A stretch of DNA of 42,356 bases from Magnetococcales bacterium (GTDB lineage Bacteria; Pseudomonadota; Magnetococcia; Magnetococcales; Magnetaquicoccaceae): contig JADGAY010000008.1 in assembly GCA_015231775.1 (NCBI GenBank), positions 1 through 42,356 on the forward strand. Direction: 5' to 3'. Both the position numbers and the translations under genes were made by a program. The notes under the pieces were generated by a model. That model searched no databases and had not been told where the DNA came from. It saw only the letters and a list, made by a program, of their open reading frames with translations. Shown in pieces: positions 11,082 to 28,592 of this stretch (position 1 is its first letter; every line of letters starts with the position of its first letter).

Positions 11082-14000
11082 TCAGGATATGACCAACACC
11101 TTGTTCTTGATCAGTTCACTGATATCAATGAGCGCAATGGTGACACCGATCCGATTGCCCGAGAGATCCAACAACGGTTCAGCCGACACGGTGCACGTCA
11201 TCAACCCCTCGCCCATGGGGAAGTCGATCCGCTCCTGATCCCCCTGGCCCTCTTCCAGCACTTTGTGTTTCAACGCGAGCAACTGACGCATGCCCGGATT
11301 GTCGGCGATTTCGTCGTCGCGCTTGCCCATGCACGCCTCGGTCTTGAAGAAAATGTGCGGATTGTAAACCCAGGTATAGCGCAACTGCTCATCCACGTTG
11401 GCGACCATGATACCCAAGGGGGAACTCTTCAGGGCCACCTTGAAGCGCTCTTCACTCAGCAGCAGACTCTTCTGCATGATCTTGATCTGGGTGATATCGA
11501 TAAAGGCGATGACAACCCCCTCGATCATGTTATCCACCGTGCGGTAGGGGCGCACCCGAATGGAGAGCCATTGCCCTTCGCTGGTTTGGCTCTCGAATTC
11601 CACGGGAATCAGGGTATCGAGAACCTGTTGCGCGCTGGCGGAGAGATCGCAGCCTTTCAGGTTGCTCACCAGATGTTTGATCGGACGGCCAACATCACCC
11701 GGAATCAGGTGAATGAACCGGGTGGCGGATGGGGTGAAACGGACGACCTTGAACGCATCATCCAGAAAGATCGTGCCGATTTCGGTGCTGGCCATCAAAT
11801 TGACCATATCGTTGTTGGCCTTGGCCAAGGTATTGAGCTTCTCCTCATATTCGGAATTCACCGTGATCAGCTCTTCATTGACCGATTGGGACTCCTCCTT
11901 GGCGGTTTCCAGCTCTTCGTTGGCGCTTTGCAGCTCCTCGTTGGCCGCCTGAAGCTCTTCGTTCATGGACTTAAGCTCTTCGTTGGTGACCTCCAGCTCT
12001 TCGATGGTGGTCTGAAGATACTCCCGGGTGGATTTGAGTTCCCGCTCCAACTCCAGCAACCGGGATCCCTTCTTCTTTTTGGAGATCACCCCGGATGGCC
12101 GGTTTTCCAGGACGTGGGAGAGCGGACCCGCCTCCTCGAAGATCACCCATGACCACCCTTTCATGGTGTCGGGTGAGAGGATGGGCTCCACGATCAGGTT
12201 GACCACATGGCCGGCTCCGTTGGACTTGATGCGGATCGCCTCCTGGGAGACCCGTTTCTGGGTGGTCTTGACCTTGCGCAGGGCCGAGGCCAGTTCGATG
12301 GTCAACCCATCCCGCGCCAGCCGCATGATATTCCAGTTGGCCTCCCCCGAAACCGCCTCCAGATAGCGTCCGGTCTTCCCGTGGATATACATGACCTCGT
12401 ATTGATCGTTGACCATCAGACAGGTAGGCGCGTGGTGGGCCAACAGATGCTGCTCGGTCAACTCCTTCAATCCAAGCATCTGTTTGGCGGCACGGTTGGC
12501 GCTTTTCTTGTCGATGACGGGTTTGCGCGGATTGGCGCCGCTGGGGACAAACAAAGTCTTGACCATCGAATTCACCTGAGGTTTGTGCTGAAAGATCTTC
12601 CATTTCCGATCCAGGATCCCATGAACGGCCACGGCTTCGCTGGTGGTCTCCGAGGTTCCCAACATCAAGAACCCGTTGGGATTGAGGGCATAGTGGAAAA
12701 TGGCATGGACTTTTTCCTGCAAAATCGGCCCCATGTAGATCAACAGGTTCCGACAACTGATCAGATCCAGGTTGGAAAAGGGGGGATCCTTGATCACATT
12801 CTGCACGGCGATGATCAACATATCCCGAATGCTCTTCTTGACCCGGTAGTGGTTCCCTTCCTGGATAAAAAAACGCCGCAACCGGGCCGTGGACAGATCG
12901 TTGGCAATGGTATCCGGGTAACGTCCGGAACGGGCGGTTTCGATGGCCCGTTCATCGATGTCCGTGGCAAAGATCTGCACCGGATAGGTTTGTCCCAACC
13001 TGTCCATCTGTTCGTGGAGAAGCATGGCGATGGAGTAGGCCTCCTCGCCACTGGCGCATCCCGGCACCCAGATGCGGATGGGTTGGCTTTCGAGGCGGCG
13101 CTCGAACAGTTTTGGAATCACCTTTTCCGCCAGAACCCCAAACGCATCCGGATCACGAAAAAAATTGGAAACCCCGATCAACAAATCCTGGAAAAGCCGC
13201 TTCACTTCGCCTGGATTGGCCTTGAGATAGGCGACATAGAGGCCGATCTCCACGATCTGCTGGATCGACATGCGCCGTTCCACCCGTCGCAGGATGGTGT
13301 TCTCTTTGTACAGGGAGAAATCGTGTCCGCTCTGTGTCTGGAGCAGCATGAAAATGGTTTTCAGGAGTTCCGGATCGGCTTCAACCCGCCAACGGGGGGA
13401 CTCGCGGGAGGTTGGCAAGACGTGACCATGACGCGCCTTGCAGGCAAAAAAATTCTTGAGTGCCAACGGCATTTGATCCGGGGGCAGGATCAAGTCGGAC
13501 AGGCCGGTCTGGATGGCGCTGCGCGGCATGCCGTCGTATTTGGCGCTATCTGGATCCTGCACCACCACCAGTCCGCCGGCCTCCTTGATCGCCTTGAGTC
13601 CCAGGGTGCCATCCGTGCCGGTGCCCGAGAGGATCACGCAGACCGCATGATGCTGCTGGTCTTGGGCCAGGGAGCGAAAAAAATGGTCGATGGAGCCGCT
13701 TCTGGCCTTGATGCCAGGCAGATCGACCAGGTGCAAAACGCCATCACGCAGTTCCAGATTGTGGTTGGGAGGGATGACATGGACGGTGTTGATGGCGATG
13801 CGGAGGTTCTCGTGCACCGGCAAGACGGGCATGGTGGTGTAATTCTGAATCAACGAGGGCAGGATGCTCGGGTGACGGGCATCCATATGCTGCACCAGGA
13901 CAAAAGCCATGCCCATGTCCGGGGACAGATTGGTGAAAAAGGCATGGAACGCCTCAAGCCCACCCGCCGAAGCCCCGATGCCGATGACGGGAAAACGCGT

Positions 14001-14162
14001 CTCGTCCACATCCGGGCTTGTCTCCTCCCGATGCGGCGACGCATGCCCGTCAGGGTCGGGAAGTTCCGTGGCCTCATCAAGGCTGGCGGCCATGCCAGGG
14101 GTCGCGAACGTTGGCGCCACGGAACTCGGAGAGAGTTGAATGCGTTGTGATTTCCTGGCCAT
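11082..14162 (-). CDS. CheB-CheR fusion with coiled coil and PAS domains
   Basis: CheB ([35 protein letters not shown]), CheR ([44 protein letters not shown]), heptad coil ([32 protein letters not shown]), PAS domains. Confidence 0.92.
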
Positions 14163-18253: not shown

Positions 18254-19564
18254 TCAGCGGGTCGGATAGCGCCGCGCCATGAACACGAACAGCAGCAGAC
18301 CCGGAATGGCGGCAAAGGTGGTGATGAGAAAAAAGTCCGTCCAGGCGATGCGCTCCGCGATCCAACCGCCGCTGGAAGCCAGCAGGGTGCGTCCAAAGGC
18401 CATGAACGAGGAGAGCAGGGCATACTGGGTGGCCGTGTAGGCCACATGGCAGAGCCGGGAGAGGTAGGCCACGAAGGCCGAGGTACCCATGCCGCCGGTG
18501 ACGTTCTCCACCGCGATGGTCACGGTGAGCATCGGCAGGGAGTAACCGACCTCGGCAAGCAGCACGAACATCAGGTTGGAGACCATTTGCAGGATCCCGC
18601 ACACAATCAACGCCTTATTGATACCCAGACGTTCCGTCAAAATTCCGCCCAACACCCCGCCGACCAACACCGCCACCAGGCCGAAAAGTTTGGTGACATT
18701 GGCGATCTCGATCTTGGAAAAGCCCATCTCCAGATAGAACGGACCGCTCATCACCCCAGCCAGGGCATCGCCGAATTTGTAGAGCAGGATGAAGAGCAGG
18801 GTCAACAGCCAGCCGCGCCGACGCATGAACTCGGCGAAGGGGGCGATCACCGCGCGCCGCAACCAGGATACCACCCTGCCGCGCCTCCCGGTGGCCACGG
18901 ATGGCGCGGGAATCCCCTCCGCCACCGGGCGCACGGGCTCGGGATTGAACAGCATCACCAGCATGCCGATCCCCATCAGGCCGGCCATCACCGCGTAGGC
19001 GAAAAACCACCCCCAATAGGTGGCCAGATACAGCCCCCCGGCCCCGGAGACCACCATGCCGAGACGATAACCGAGCACGCTCATCGCCGCGCCGGCGCCG
19101 TACTGACGCTCTTCCAGGATCTCGACCCGGTAGGCGTCGATGACGATATCCTGGGTGGCCGACCAGAAGGCGACGAACAGCGCAAACCAGGCGGTCCAGA
19201 ACGGATCGCCTGCCGGATCGCTCGCCCCGAGGCCGAGGATGCTGGCGATCAACGCCAATTGGGTCAACACCGCCCAGCCGCGTCGTTGCCCGAGACGGGT
19301 GGTGAAGCCGGGCACCGGCATGCGATCGACCAGCGGCGACCAGAGGAACTTGAAGGTGTAGGGGGTTCCCGCCAGGGCGAACAGGGCGATGGAACTCTTG
19401 CTCACCCCGGCCTCGGCCAGCCATAATGAGAGGGTGCCGACGGTCAGGGCCAGCGGCAGGCCGCTGAAGAAGCCCAACAACAGGATCACCAGCACGCGGG
19501 GTTCCCGATAGATGGCAAACGCCGACCAGAAATGGCGCAGCCCCCCTGATGTGGATGATGGCAT
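18254..19564 (-). CDS. MFS transporter, AmpG muropeptide permease-like
   Basis: REPRVLVILLLGFFSGLPLALTVGTLSLWLAEAGVSKSSIALFALAGTPYTFKFLWSPLVDR and multiple TM segments. Start at 19564. Confidence 0.87.
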   Translation of the reverse strand: MPSSTSGGLRHFWSAFAIYREPRVLVILLLGFFSGLPLALTVGTLSLWLAEAGVSKSSIALFALAGTPYTFKFLWSPLVDRMPVPGFTTRLGQRRGWAVLTQLALIASILGLGASDPAGDPFWTAWFALFVAFWSATQDIVIDAYRVEILEERQYGAGAAMSVLGYRLGMVVSGAGGLYLATYWGWFFAYAVMAGLMGIGMLVMLFNPEPVRPVAEGIPAPSVATGRRGRVVSWLRRAVIAPFAEFMRRRGWLLTLLFILLYKFGDALAGVMSGPFYLEMGFSKIEIANVTKLFGLVAVLVGGVLGGILTERLGINKALIVCGILQMVSNLMFVLLAEVGYSLPMLTVTIAVENVTGGMGTSAFVAYLSRLCHVAYTATQYALLSSFMAFGRTLLASSGGWIAERIAWTDFFLITTFAAIPGLLLFVFMARRYPTR

Positions 19565-19668
19565 GCGGGACTCCCGATTAACAAGCGACGAGGATGCGCC
19601 TAAGCGCCGGCCACGATGATAGCAGCCGGCGTGGTTTCGACAAGGCCTGATCGACAAGGGGAACACCG

Positions 19669-20091
19669 ATGAGTCATGCCCATGTGGCCGGGATTCTGAG
19701 TCGTCTGGACCGCCGCACCGCCGATCGGCTGCTCGGGTTTCTGGAGAGCCGGGAGTCCGAACTGGCGCAAACGATTCGGGAGGGGATGGTGCTGTTCGAG
19801 GATCTGGCCACTCTGGACCGGCGCGATCTGGAGACGCTGCTGCACGAGGTGACAGACGAGAGCCTCGCCATGGCCTTGCGCGGCGCCGATGCGGCGCTTG
19901 TGGAGCGATTCAGGGGCAGTGTGTCGCGAAGTCAGGCCGAGGTGCTGCGCGAGGCCCTGGCGTTCGACCCGCCCGTCCCCCGTGCGCGGGTGGAACGGGC
20001 CAGGCGGGAAATTCTGGAGACCGCGCGTCTCTTGCAGACGCGCGGTCGTTTGATGCTTCCCTCGCGGGGTGAACCGATGATCGGTCAGTGA
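19669..20091 (+). CDS. Stand-alone FliG C-terminal-domain protein (140 aa)
   Basis: ESELAQTIREGMVLFEDLATLDRRDLETLLHEVTDESLAMALRGADAALVERFRGSVSRSQAEVLREALAFDPPVPRARVERARREILETARLLQTRGRLML matches the FliG pattern (ELAEKIRERMFVFEDLVxLDDRxLQxLLREVDxxxLALALKGAxEELREKxxxNMSxRAAEMLREDLExxGPVRLxDVExAQxxIlxxxRxLexxGxI). AAGGGG RBS. Confidence 0.85.
   Translation: MSHAHVAGILSRLDRRTADRLLGFLESRESELAQTIREGMVLFEDLATLDRRDLETLLHEVTDESLAMALRGADAALVERFRGSVSRSQAEVLREALAFDPPVPRARVERARREILETARLLQTRGRLMLPSRGEPMIGQ
20019..20047. repeat. Perfect 12-bp inverted repeat inside the 3' end of the fliG-like CDS
   Basis: GACCGCGCGTCT-cttgc-AGACGCGCGGTC. Confidence 0.7.
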
Positions 20092-20942
20092 CCGTGCGCC
20101 GCCTTCGGCAAGGGCATCGGATCGCTGTCCAATCCGCCATGGGGGCTGTCCTGGGCCCCTTCGAGAATCCCACCCACCCTCGGGCTGCAACCGCTGTAGA
20201 GCGACGGATCCAATCCCACCGCCTTGACCCGCTCCTTGATCACCAGGGCCACCCCGTGACCGGTCAGCGGCTGTCCGGAGATGCGACCATGACGGTTGAT
20301 CCCCTGGAACACCGCCCCGCTCACGATCCCCGAGGCCACCAGCCACGCCTTGAGCGCGGTCACCGGGCAGGTGGAGGAGTCCGTGCCGTGGGGAATCATC
20401 ACCAGGCGACCGGTGCTAAGACTCAACTCCATGCCGCCGGCCCGTTCGCGAAGGTTCTCCACCGCCAGGGTGGTCAACTCCGAGCGCCGAAGTCCGCCAG
20501 AAAAACCAACCAGGATCAACGCCTTGTCACGCAGATCCTTCAGGCGCCCCCCCATGACGTTCAACACCGCCGTGGTCTGGTTGGAGGTCAGGGGCGCCAC
20601 GCGACGCTGCTCGCGTCCGTGCTTCTGCTTGATCCCCTTGAGCACCGCGTTCACCAATTCGGTTTTGGTCGGATCCTCCAACCCTTGCGCCGAGTGGGCT
20701 TTGCCGAGGGAGACCCGCCAACGGGCCAACGTCGCGAATTTGTGACTGTTGGCATGCTCCACCAGGTAGTTCGCCACCATCTTCTCGTGGGCCGGAATAA
20801 CGCCACCCCAGTCGATGAAGCGACGCAGATCGCCCCAGTAGGCAGCGCGGGTGGCGTCCGTCAGGGTGGATGCCTGGGCAAAGGCCTTGATCTGAGGATC
20901 AAGGGAAGGCACCTCATGAATGGTGTGGGGAAAATCGCCCAT
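20085..20942 (-). pseudogene. Tyrosine recombinase/integrase, truncated or degenerate at the C-terminus
   Basis: SAM-like N-terminal domain, ArgI box GFSGGLRRSELTTL, TGRLVMIPHG; the HxxR box appears as GCSPR and no catalytic Tyr follows before the stop. The stop overlaps the fliG-like stop tail-to-tail. Confidence 0.75.
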
Positions 20943-23088: not shown

Positions 23089-24246
23089 CTACACCGAACG
23101 CCCATGCTGGCGGGAATAGAGGCTCACATGGGCCAGAAGCCCCATGGCGATCATCAGGGTCACCATGGAGCTGCCGCCATAACTGACCAGCGGCAAAGGC
23201 ACCCCCACCACCGGCAACAACCCCACCACCATGCCGACATTGACCAACACCTGGATGGCGAAGAGCATGGTGGCGCCCACCACGGTGAGCAGGCCGAACC
23301 GGTCGTTGGCCATTTCGGAGATCAGCAGGGCGCGCAGGATGATCAGGATGTACATCACCAACAGCGTCACCCCGCCCACGAACCCCCACTCCTCGGCCAG
23401 CACCGAAAAGATGAAGTCGGTATGCCGTTCCGGCAGGAAATCGAGCTGGCTCTGACTGCCGGCCATGAACCCCTTGCCCGTCACCCCGCCGGAACCGACC
23501 GCGATCTTGGATTGGATGATGTGATACCCGGATCCCAACGGATCGCGCTCCGGGGAGAACAGGGTGATGATCCGCTGTTTCTGATAGGCATGCAAGCCAT
23601 TCCAGGCCAAGGGCATGGAGGCGCCGAACAGCAATGCCAGGGTGAGCATCACCTTCCAGGAGATGCCGGCCACCACGATCATCGCGAACCCTACGCCGGC
23701 CAGCAGCACGGCGGTGCCGAGATCGGGCTGCTTGATGATGAACACCACGGGCAGGATGATCATCAGAAACGGCACGCCCAGATCCCGCCAACCCAACGAT
23801 CCATTCTTGGCGTGATCCTGGAAATAGCGCGCCAGGGCCAGGATCAGGGCAACCTTCATCAACTCGGAGGTCTGGAGACGAAAAAAACCCACCTCCAGCC
23901 AGCGTCGCGCCCCCATGCCGACGCTGCCCGCGACCATGGTCACGGCCAACAGGATCAGGCTGCCGCTGTAGAACAGATAGGCGAACCGTTTATAGAGACG
24001 CTCCCCGGCCACCAGGGCCACGAAGAGCATGATGCCCAGCCCGAACCCGGACTGGATCACCTGACGCCAGAACAGCCATTGATTATGCTCGCCGCCCACC
24101 GCCGAAAAGAGCACCCCGAATCCCAGACAAATGGTGAGCAGCAACAAAAGCATCAGACTCCAGGGAAAACGCCGCAACCGATCGGCCCATCCCAGGGAGA
24201 CCGCGCCACTACCCCCGTCGAGCAACGGTTTGCCGCCCTCGTTCAT
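23089..24246 (-). CDS. rodA: Rod shape-determining protein RodA (SEDS glycosyltransferase)
   Basis: FxGVGARRWLEVGFFRLQTSELMKVALILALARYF..PDLGTAVLL..GFMAGSQSQLDFLPERHTDFIFSVLAEEWGFVG..GVPLPLVSYGGSSM. Confidence 0.95.
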   Translation of the reverse strand: MNEGGKPLLDGGSGAVSLGWADRLRRFPWSLMLLLLLTICLGFGVLFSAVGGEHNQWLFWRQVIQSGFGLGIMLFVALVAGERLYKRFAYLFYSGSLILLAVTMVAGSVGMGARRWLEVGFFRLQTSELMKVALILALARYFQDHAKNGSLGWRDLGVPFLMIILPVVFIIKQPDLGTAVLLAGVGFAMIVVAGISWKVMLTLALLFGASMPLAWNGLHAYQKQRIITLFSPERDPLGSGYHIIQSKIAVGSGGVTGKGFMAGSQSQLDFLPERHTDFIFSVLAEEWGFVGGVTLLVMYILIILRALLISEMANDRFGLLTVVGATMLFAIQVLVNVGMVVGLLPVVGVPLPLVSYGGSSMVTLMIAMGLLAHVSLYSRQHGRSV

Positions 24247-24293
24247 GTCGTGCCCCCGTCGAACAACGGTTTGCCGCCCTCGTTCATGTCGTG
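24212..24293. repeat. 41-bp direct tandem duplication at the mrdA/rodA junction (17/18-like near-identical; one mismatch in 41)
   Basis: cccccgtcgaGcaacggtttgccgccctcgttcatgtcgtg (24212-24252) and cccccgtcgaAcaacggtttgccgccctcgttcatgtcgtg (24253-24293). Confidence 0.95.
24243..24287 (-). CDS. 14-codon mini-ORF MNEGGKPLFDGGTT overlapping the mrdA stop and the rodA start
   Basis: ATG at 24287-24285 overlaps the mrdA TGA (ATGA); its TGA at 24245-24243 overlaps the rodA ATG (24246-24244). Read directly on the minus strand. Confidence 0.6.
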   Translation of the reverse strand: MNEGGKPLFDGGTT

Positions 24294-26095
24294 CCCCCGT
24301 ATTTGGAGAAAAACCGCTCCAGCACCCGTTTGGCCACCGGCGCCGCCGCGGAACCGCCATGTCCGCCATGTTCGACGATCACCGCCACGACGATGCGCGG
24401 TCGATCCACCGGCGCCAGACAGACATACAAGGCGTGATCCTGCAACTTTTCATTGGTGGTCTTGATGATCTGACCACTCTTTTCCCGTTTGTGGCGGGCC
24501 ACCTGGGAGGTGCCGGTCTTGCCCCCCGAACGCACCCCCTCCAGCCGGCTTTTGTAGGCGGTGCCGTTTGGATCGTGCACCACCCCCTCCAGACACTGCC
24601 GCATGATCTCCATGTGATGGGCGGAAAAGTAGTTGCGCGTCACCACCTCGGGCTCCTGACCCGGCTGGAGTTTGCGCAGCAGGGGTCGATAGACCGTTCC
24701 CCCATTGGCCATGCACGACACCATCACCGCCAGTTGCAACGGGGTGGTCAACACATACCCCTGACCAATGCCGGTGATGTAGGTTTCTCCCGGAAACCAG
24801 GAGGATTTGAAAATCTTGCGTTTCCAGGTGCGCGACGGGATCAGGCCTGGCCGCTCCCCTTCCAGATCGATGCCGGTCAAACCACCCAACCCCATCTTGC
24901 GCGCCTGACGCTCGATGGCATCGATGCCAAGCCGCTCGGCCAGCTTGTAAAAATAGACATCGCAGGATTGGGTGAAGGCTTGATGCAACGCCACGTTGCC
25001 ATGTCCATGCCGCCGCCAGCAGTAGAAACGCTGCTCCTCCTTGAGCAGAAAGCCGCCGCAAGGGACCGTTTCCCGCGGGTCGAGCTTGCCGGATACCAGA
25101 CCCGCCATGGCGGTGACGATCTTGAAGGTCGAGCCGGGCGGATAGTGTCCCTGCACCGCCTTGTTGATCAACGGTCGATTCGGATCGTTCATCACCTCCT
25201 GCCACTGGGCGTGGGTGAAGCCGCGAATGAACTGGTTGGGGTCGAAGGTGGGGGTGCTCACCATGGCCAGAATCTCGCCGTTGTTCGGATCGATGGCCAC
25301 CACCGCGCCCATCTCGCCACCCAACGCCTCCTGGGCCTCCCGTTGCAGATCCATGTCCAGGGTGAGTTGCAGATCCTCCCCCGACTCCGGCGGATTGCGA
25401 TGCAGTTCGCGCACATGGCGTCCCACGGCGTTGACCTCCATCTCCAACACCCCTTCGCGCCCGCGCAGCGTCTCCTCGAAACGCTGCTCCACCCCGCTCT
25501 TGCCCACCAGATCCCCGGAGCGAAAACTGACTCTCGAAAACCGCTTGCGATCGTTGTCGCTCGGTTCGCCGAGATAGCCCAGGATATGACAGGCCAGGGC
25601 ATCGAACGGATAGGAGCGTACCGACTGGCTTTGCAGATCCACGCCGGGAAATTCGTGGATGCGCACCTCGATGCTGCCCACCTGCTCCCAGGTCAGATGG
25701 GATTTGACCCGCAACGGCAGAAAGGAGCGCTGTTTGCGCGCCATCTGCAACAGGTGTTTGATCTCCTCTTCGGAGAGTTCGATGTACCGGCTCAATCGCT
25801 TGAGGAGCATGCGCAGCGAACCGGAAAGCTCCGGGATCACCACCACCTCGTAATCAGGGCTATTCTCGACCAGCAGGCGGTTTTCGCGATCGAAGATCCG
25901 TCCGCGTTGCGCGGAGATCGGCTTGAGGCTGATGCGGTTGTCCTCGGCCAGGGTCCGATACTCCCCGCCGCGCATCACCTGAAGATGGAACAGCCGCGCG
26001 CCCAGAAAGAAAAAACCCAGGCCCAGCCCGCCCCCAACCAGCAGCAGACGACGGCGCGCATCGCCGCGAAACTGTTCGCGGTCATCGTCGAGCAT
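24284..26095 (-). CDS. mrdA: Penicillin-binding protein 2
   Basis: PBP dimerisation domain, YPPGSTFKIVTAMAGL (SxxK), SCDVYFYKLAERLG (SxN-like), RSGGKTGTSQV (KTG). Confidence 0.95.
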   Translation of the reverse strand: MLDDDREQFRGDARRRLLLVGGGLGLGFFFLGARLFHLQVMRGGEYRTLAEDNRISLKPISAQRGRIFDRENRLLVENSPDYEVVVIPELSGSLRMLLKRLSRYIELSEEEIKHLLQMARKQRSFLPLRVKSHLTWEQVGSIEVRIHEFPGVDLQSQSVRSYPFDALACHILGYLGEPSDNDRKRFSRVSFRSGDLVGKSGVEQRFEETLRGREGVLEMEVNAVGRHVRELHRNPPESGEDLQLTLDMDLQREAQEALGGEMGAVVAIDPNNGEILAMVSTPTFDPNQFIRGFTHAQWQEVMNDPNRPLINKAVQGHYPPGSTFKIVTAMAGLVSGKLDPRETVPCGGFLLKEEQRFYCWRRHGHGNVALHQAFTQSCDVYFYKLAERLGIDAIERQARKMGLGGLTGIDLEGERPGLIPSRTWKRKIFKSSWFPGETYITGIGQGYVLTTPLQLAVMVSCMANGGTVYRPLLRKLQPGQEPEVVTRNYFSAHHMEIMRQCLEGVVHDPNGTAYKSRLEGVRSGGKTGTSQVARHKREKSGQIIKTTNEKLQDHALYVCLAPVDRPRIVVAVIVEHGGHGGSAAAPVAKRVLERFFSKYGGTT

Positions 26096-26588
26096 GGGTT
26101 TCCTCCAGCCAGGTGCGATGGATCATCACCAGGAAATGGATCACCAGGGGGGCGATCAGCATGGTGGCCACGGGACGCCCCAACAACAGGTGCCAACGCA
26201 CCGCCATGCCCCATTTGAGCATGGCCAGACCGAGTTGAATCCCCTCGGCGAGCAACACGAAGATCGGCACCACGAAGATCAGATAGGTGAAATCGATGGA
26301 GCGGATCAAGCGTCCCAGGCGTCCGATGATGAGGATCAGCAGGATATTGGAGATGGCGTTCAATCCCAGGGGCGCGCCGGAGATCACATCCACCAGCAGT
26401 CCGGCCAGCAGGGCGAGGATCGGACCACAACGATCCGTGCGGTACAAACGCCAGTAGAACAGACAGATCAATACCAGATCCGGACGCAGGACCGACCAGG
26501 CATGAAACGGCAGGGCCATCTCCTGGAGCACCGCCGCCATGAAGATGGTCATGGCCGGAAGCCCGGAGATGAGCAGGGAGACCATCAT
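26082..26588 (-). CDS. mreD: Rod shape-determining protein MreD
   Basis: Small polytopic protein (RPDLVLICLFYW..ILALLAGLLVDVISGAPLGLNAI) in canonical position between mreC and mrdA. Confidence 0.9.
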   Translation of the reverse strand: MMVSLLISGLPAMTIFMAAVLQEMALPFHAWSVLRPDLVLICLFYWRLYRTDRCGPILALLAGLLVDVISGAPLGLNAISNILLILIIGRLGRLIRSIDFTYLIFVVPIFVLLAEGIQLGLAMLKWGMAVRWHLLLGRPVATMLIAPLVIHFLVMIHRTWLEETHARR

Positions 26589-26609
26589 GTCCTTGGGATG
26601 GACCTCGAA

Positions 26610-27467
26610 TCAGGGGAGAGGTTTGTTGTCAGCCGGCTTGACGGCGCGGGGCAGGAGCAGGTTGGCCTCCTCGATGCGACCGAAATCGACCGTGGGTTGC
26701 ACCGTGGCCTCGCGGAACAATCCTTCGTCACCCGGCTCCAGGGAGAGCACCTTGCCCACCACCAACCCTTTCGGAAAGATGCCGCCGGTGCCGGAGGTGA
26801 CCACCACGTCGCCGACCACCACATCGGCGTCCTTGGGGAGGTACTCCAGGGTCATCTGGGTGTCGTTCTGGCCGGCGCAGACCGCCTTGACGCGGGAGCG
26901 CTGGATCAGGACCGGCACGCGGGAGTTCAGATCGAGCATGGAGAGGACCAGGGAGGCGTTGGCCGAGGCGCGCACCACCCGACCCACCAGACCCGAAGGA
27001 ACGGTGACCGGTGCGTTGACGATCACGCCGTCCTGACGCCCGGCGTTGACGATGAAGGAGCGGGCGAAGGCCGAGGAGGAGTCTCCGACCACGCGCACGG
27101 CCAAGGGTTGGAAATCGGGATCCGAGCGCATCTGCAACAAGGACTTGAGCCGATGGTTCTCTTTCTCCAACTCCTCGAGACGCACGCCCAGGGGACGGAG
27201 ACGTTCCAGCTCGGCCTTGTATTGACGATTTTCCCGGTCCAGGCGGGCCAACTCCGAAAGTCGGGCCTGAAACCCCTCGATGGTGGAGACCGGACGGGTG
27301 AGGAAGGCCTGGGCGGTTCCGGCCAGTTGCAACAGCCCCTCGCGCATCCCGTGGCGATCCCCCACCGACCCTCCAGCCATCAGCAGCAGAAAAAGGGCGA
27401 TCACCAGGGTGAGGAAGACCGAAATGGCATGTCGAAATTCGCGAAAGATGCCCAGCAGTGCCGTCAT
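26610..27467 (-). CDS. mreC: Rod shape-determining protein MreC
   Basis: N-terminal TM, coiled coil, SFIVNAGRQDGVIVNAPVTVPSGLVGRVVRASANASLVLSMLDLNSRVPV..GTGGIFPKGLVVGKV. Confidence 0.95.
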   Translation of the reverse strand: MTALLGIFREFRHAISVFLTLVIALFLLLMAGGSVGDRHGMREGLLQLAGTAQAFLTRPVSTIEGFQARLSELARLDRENRQYKAELERLRPLGVRLEELEKENHRLKSLLQMRSDPDFQPLAVRVVGDSSSAFARSFIVNAGRQDGVIVNAPVTVPSGLVGRVVRASANASLVLSMLDLNSRVPVLIQRSRVKAVCAGQNDTQMTLEYLPKDADVVVGDVVVTSGTGGIFPKGLVVGKVLSLEPGDEGLFREATVQPTVDFGRIEEANLLLPRAVKPADNKPLP

Positions 27468-27500
27468 GCCACGTCCTGGTCGGATGGAGATAAGGCGCTA

Positions 27501-28592
<1,092 letters not shown>

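Follow-up and report, generated by a model that had tools for sequence, protein, structure and literature searches.

A stand-alone FliG C-terminal module in Magnetococcales, a candidate detached rotor subunit

FliG subunits are thought of as fixed parts of the flagellar C-ring, and the second FliG-family protein of Borrelia, FliG1, is itself full length. In C-ring nomenclature, D4 of FliG covers residues 196–233 (ARM-C) and D5 residues 243–331 (the torque domain), and the D3 and D4 domains of adjacent subunits intercalate by domain swap (PMC11087270); the ARM-C part interacts with FliG_M and FliM_M (PMC7505661). Borrelia has FliG paralogues (FliG1/FliG2), one of them in addition to the structural protein, and for FliG1 an asymmetric localisation and a role in torque, not in flagellar synthesis, are reported (PMC7225975). 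The clutches and brakes EpsE, MotI and YcgR lower torque or disengage rotor and stator (PMC10140304), and a FliG domain fused to an MS-ring protein is known outside a normal FliG. In the open-access papers we found no description of a stand-alone FliG-C. Magnetotactic cocci swim very fast, and in strain MC-1 the two flagellar bundles are inferred to counter-rotate (PMC7010408).

Here we describe a short FliG-like gene, hereafter the orphan, in a stretch of 42,356 nucleotides (the window) from a Magnetococcales MAG, G000, that is 89% complete. Like FliG1 it accompanies the structural FliG as an additional member of the family, but FliG1 is described as a second fliG homologue (PMC7225975), whereas the orphan is a detached C-terminal half, and from another phylum. 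If the role that we infer for it holds, it would share with EpsE, MotI and YcgR the lowering of torque or the disengagement of rotor and stator; those proteins are unrelated to it, however, whereas the orphan is made from a rotor part, lacks a c-di-GMP domain and has in Pfam neither the glycosyltransferase nor the PilZ homology that defines them. Unlike the MS-ring fusion, it is free.

An intact gene for the C-terminal part of FliG

The orphan gene (19,669–20,091, + strand) encodes 140 amino acids corresponding approximately to Salmonella FliG residues 194–333. It runs intact from an ATG start to a TGA stop, its codon usage (GC3 0.77, GC2 0.48) is typical of a coding gene, and a ribosome-binding-site-like AAGGGG, identified by eye (19,656–19,661, +), lies seven bases before the ATG; the first-pass annotation was right to read it as an intact small gene with a start codon and ribosome-binding site.

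Against the Pfam FliG_C profile (PF01706) the product scores 96.6 bits (E 1.3e-27; gathering cut-off 23.3), residues 25–130 covering positions 3–108 of 108, and it is thus a member of the family; the only other Pfam match is a sub-threshold one to MgtE_N. Its PDB sequence matches are exclusively FliG (best 3ajc, 2.2e-17), and residues 11–132 align with residues 204–325 of Salmonella FliG (8umd_B). An AlphaFold2 model built from a 17-row alignment has a pLDDT of 86.8; all of its Foldseek matches with E < 0.001 are FliG, and it reaches a TM of 0.84 to Salmonella FliG 8wiw and 8umx. We considered a CW-locked conformer and rejected it: the model gives a TM of 0.84 to CW and 0.64 to CCW structures, but the same segment of the host's ordinary FliG behaves alike (0.81 versus 0.60), so the CW preference is not specific to the orphan.

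By the domain limits of PMC11087270, ARM-C (D4) occupies residues 3–40 (19,675–19,788, +) and the torque domain (D5), also delimited by Pfam and Foldseek, residues 50–138 (19,816–20,082, +). The alignment places the MXXF hinge at 19,786–19,797 (+; MVLF in the orphan, MFLF in the host FliG) and the torque helix at residues 87–98 (19,927–19,962, +). The orphan is a stand-alone FliG C-terminal module reaching from the D4 boundary through D5. It shares with FliG homology over its whole length, the fold, the D4–D5 order and the hinge, but under the full-FliG equivalog TIGR00207 it scores only 84.9 bits, over positions 203–331, against a cut-off of 226.7; the host's full-length FliG scores 295.1. 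FliG_N and FliG_M find no match in the orphan by Pfam or PDB sequence search, and 140 amino acids leave no room for them; the protein therefore has neither the FliF-binding domain nor the EHPQR site for FliM.

These results uphold, by an HMM match extending over the FliG_C profile, the earlier identification of the product as the C-terminal part of FliG, and amend it in two respects. An 'EHPQR-type middle region' had been read into the protein, but EHPQR belongs to FliG_M, which is absent; the FliF-binding domain is missing as claimed, but so is the middle domain, and the suggested binding of FliM is unavailable through EHPQR.

As the same annotation had proposed to check, a full-length fliG is found elsewhere in the genome, on contig C66 of G000 (L049:9123–10214), with FliG_N, FliG_M and FliG_C; FliM is also encoded. 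Within the window, Pfam scans of about 37 ORFs identify no flagellar structural gene, in agreement with the first impression of an isolated gene. The orphan is flanked by a divergent AmpG-like MFS transporter, assigned by Pfam (18,254–19,564, −), and by a convergent tyrosine-recombinase-like gene (20,085–20,942, −) that overlaps its 3′ end by 7 bases. A CheB-CheR-PAS fusion protein is encoded 5.5 kb away (11,085–14,162, −), and a rod-shape cluster (rodA, PBP2, mreD, mreC, mreB; 23,092–28,553) has a gene order known for cocci.

Distribution and descent of the orphan

Orthologues of 138–141 amino acids occur in 17 of the 48 Magnetococcales genomes and in two families: in family f1 they are carried by 7 of 11 genomes of the window's genus (g1) and 6 of 7 of another genus (g2), and in family f8 by 4 of 5 genomes of genus g9. 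An alignment profile gives these 17 proteins 184–204 bits, and every full-length FliG at most 158. A wider scan with the single orphan sequence found no relatives; one with the orphan alignment matched five, all from Magnetococcales MAGs, and among the matches listed from 399 Pseudomonadota genomes, down to about 120 bits, there is no short FliG-C frame outside Magnetococcales. In the tree the 17 orphans form one side of a branch opposite 28 full-length FliGs with support of 98/91 (91/76 in a previous tree that included additional long branches). Because they form one clade apart from the full-length proteins, the stand-alone sequences look like one old paralogue and not the product of repeated truncations. 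We propose them as a conserved stand-alone FliG-C subfamily of Magnetococcales, with 17 members of about 140 amino acids, in one clade and at a locus separate from that of FliG.

The orphan is under purifying selection, with dN/dS of 0.15–0.47 in g1, 0.09–0.21 in g2 and 0.13–0.17 in f8, figures that come from pairs with unsaturated synonymous sites, many pairs being near saturation. In f1 the locus is fixed, with the transporter and the recombinase-like gene on either side; in f8 the neighbours are a carbonic anhydrase and an iron alcohol dehydrogenase. Four genomes (G001, G002, G006 and G016) keep the two f1 neighbours, including the recombinase-like gene, around some 100–500 bases without an orphan, and in G007, whose recombinase is the closest relative, different sequence follows that gene; the apparent absences in G001 and G007 may be due to assembly gaps. 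Since the neighbours persist without the orphan in these four genomes, the simplest history is one in which the f1 ancestor already had the gene and several descendants lost it. These patchy losses at a syntenic site, together with the long branch of the window's copy (0.69, the fastest-evolving copy in a fast-evolving g1), are what a decaying relic of a FliG duplication would leave. However, 17 of 17 copies are open and of nearly one length, fall in a single clade and show dN/dS values well below 1; the same evidence rules out the recent degraded copy of FliG that the first-pass annotation had named as fatal to its view, bears out an intact gene conserved in relatives, and leaves the relic, already largely refuted, a very improbable explanation.

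The gene is not essential, as it is missing from G002, G006 and G024 despite an intact FliG. Nearly all Magnetococcales have FliG, so co-occurrence of the two is uninformative. G001, 100% complete by estimate, has no FliG_C match whatever although FliM is present, which reflects either an assembly gap or a true loss of FliG.

Stator-facing charges and the rotor-free alternatives

The stator-contact residues of Vibrio FliG correspond to the series K264, R281, D288 and D289 in E. coli numbering. In Vibrio, K284, R301, D308 and D309 have been named as these contacts (PMC7505661). At the E. coli sites K264, R281, D288, D289 and R297 the window's orphan reads R/S/E/A/P (R71, S88, E95, A96 and P104), against K/R/E/D/K in 25 of 25 Magnetococcales full-length FliGs compared; the conserved charge set is thus not intact in the window's orphan but largely kept in g2 and f8. 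Counted over FliG-invariant columns within each orphan group, the five motor charges are kept at 29% in g1, where the remaining D5 charges stand at 66% (Fisher p 2.5e-4), at 83% against 49% in g2 (p 0.001) and at 80% against 42% in f8 (p 0.007), and, in overall conservation, D4 exceeds the torque part in g1 (difference 0.18, permutation p 0.008) and the reverse holds in g2 (p 0.047), all p values for charges and conservation being optimistic because the sequences are related and the Fisher cells phylogenetically non-independent. The g1 orphan has selectively lost the stator-facing charges, whereas the g2 and f8 orphans have selectively kept them. In g1, 95% of the FliG-invariant D4 hydrophobic residues are kept, and the hydrophobic residues of D5 match FliG at just 48%; D5 may therefore have a new partner there.

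Charges kept in g2 and f8 do not tell docking on the rotor from binding to the stator. They would also suit a decoy that stays outside the rotor and, by binding the MotA cytoplasmic loop through its D5, plugs, stores or stabilises stators. A tie between D5 and the stator side does exist in an f8 relative, G037, where three proteins join a MotA/PomA-like part to C-terminal FliG D5, so that a single polypeptide unites stator and rotor parts (L068:548–1753, +; L069:1935–3683, −, with two D5 copies; L069:143–1915, −, which also has an HD/SpoT-like domain); the MotA part is assigned from NCBIfam matches, not Pfam ones, at E 4e-8 to 3e-12, which fall short of the equivalog cut-offs. Yet these fusions are a different gene and carry D5 without ARM-C, and g1 lost the motor charges but kept the rotor-facing ARM-C, which a decoy would find superfluous. 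We regard this as unlikely.

Alternatively, the protein may have been re-employed outside the motor, where it would serve some other partner as an armadillo-like helical adaptor and have nothing to do with rotation. The absence of flagellar neighbours (the conserved ones are, in f1, an MFS transporter and a recombinase and, in f8, a carbonic anhydrase and an alcohol dehydrogenase) is consistent with this, as is the change of the motor charges and much of D5 in g1. But the neighbours differ between the families and so suggest no shared pathway, and the residues that g2 and f8 selectively keep are precisely the motor charges; such an adaptor seems rather unlikely to us.

A possible exchangeable part of the rotor

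The reading that we prefer, tentatively and at somewhat less than an even chance, is that the orphan is an ancient stand-alone paralogue of FliG D4 and D5 that acts as a detached rotor subunit at the flagellar motor. Given the D3/D4 domain swap and the contacts of ARM-C, a free D4–D5 module is a piece able to dock in trans. We predict that its ARM-C docks on ARM-M (D3) of full-length FliG in the C-ring, much as neighbouring FliG subunits swap domains, and that it would thereby displace or cap the resident C-terminal half and offer its own D5 to the stator. With their motor charges, the D5 domains of g2 and f8 could still engage stators; that of g1 would be electrostatically blank, so that any copy taken up into the ring would reduce torque or uncouple the stators and act as a brake or clutch built from a rotor part, a 'silent cog'. 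The selective loss of stator-touching charges in g1 suggests that the orphan may serve as an interchangeable component for tuning or disengaging the motor.

The 'rotor-mimic or brake' of the first-pass annotation accordingly agrees, as a predicted role, with both the domain boundary and the pattern of charges. In favour of a detached subunit are the start at the D4 boundary and the genome's own full-length FliG and FliM; against it are the lack of a flagellar neighbour and of a recognisable flagellar promoter, the losses from genomes with an intact FliG, the divergence of the g1 D5 and the fast evolution of g1. No FliA-like box is seen upstream of the gene. A GTCAA-N5-TGAC palindrome precedes six of six g2 orphans (L039–L044), once with a mismatch, and lies close to the start codon except in G014, where it is further upstream; it is possibly a local operator or the promoter of the divergent transporter. 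We dropped the idea that it marks a flagellar regulon: its genome-wide counts equal those of a reversed-pattern control, and the other sites inspected look coding.

A chaperone-like cap that holds FliG ARM-M until C-ring closure would also draw on ARM-C, the natural partner of ARM-M, whose hydrophobic residues g1 keeps so well. As such an assembly factor would explain neither why a whole D5 is kept nor why g2 and f8 selectively retain its charges, and most Magnetococcales manage without the orphan, we consider it highly improbable.

Returning to the detached subunit, we think it possible, though on balance doubtful, that the orphan is a free, exchangeable rotor cog: the C-terminal half of FliG would be swapped for a separately encoded one that sets torque or direction, perhaps asymmetrically, and that would be silent in one genus and competent for torque in its sister lineages. 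A conserved, detached D4–D5 gene with a torque surface charged or blank by lineage would amount to a natural experiment in which a motor is tuned by replacing one of its subunits. As an explanation of counter-rotating bundles the orphan is weakened by the profile search of the 48 Magnetococcales genomes, which finds none in G027 (one contig of 4,719,581 bases), which we take to be MC-1; it is thus not their general cause.

Other variants of motor proteins were seen among the relatives. Family f13 has a second, divergent FliG paralogue, nearly full length and on a very long branch (L066:777–1808 in G039; L067:546–1547 in G044), with a weak FliG_N and clear FliG_M and FliG_C domains; a similar match occurs in G047. 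One of the G037 fusions lies on a contig with genes that by eye look conjugation-like, and next to the MotA-FliG_C fusions of that genome a 645-residue protein (L154:3773–5710, −) combines a FliM N-terminus-like LSNEEIEVLL with ankyrin repeats.
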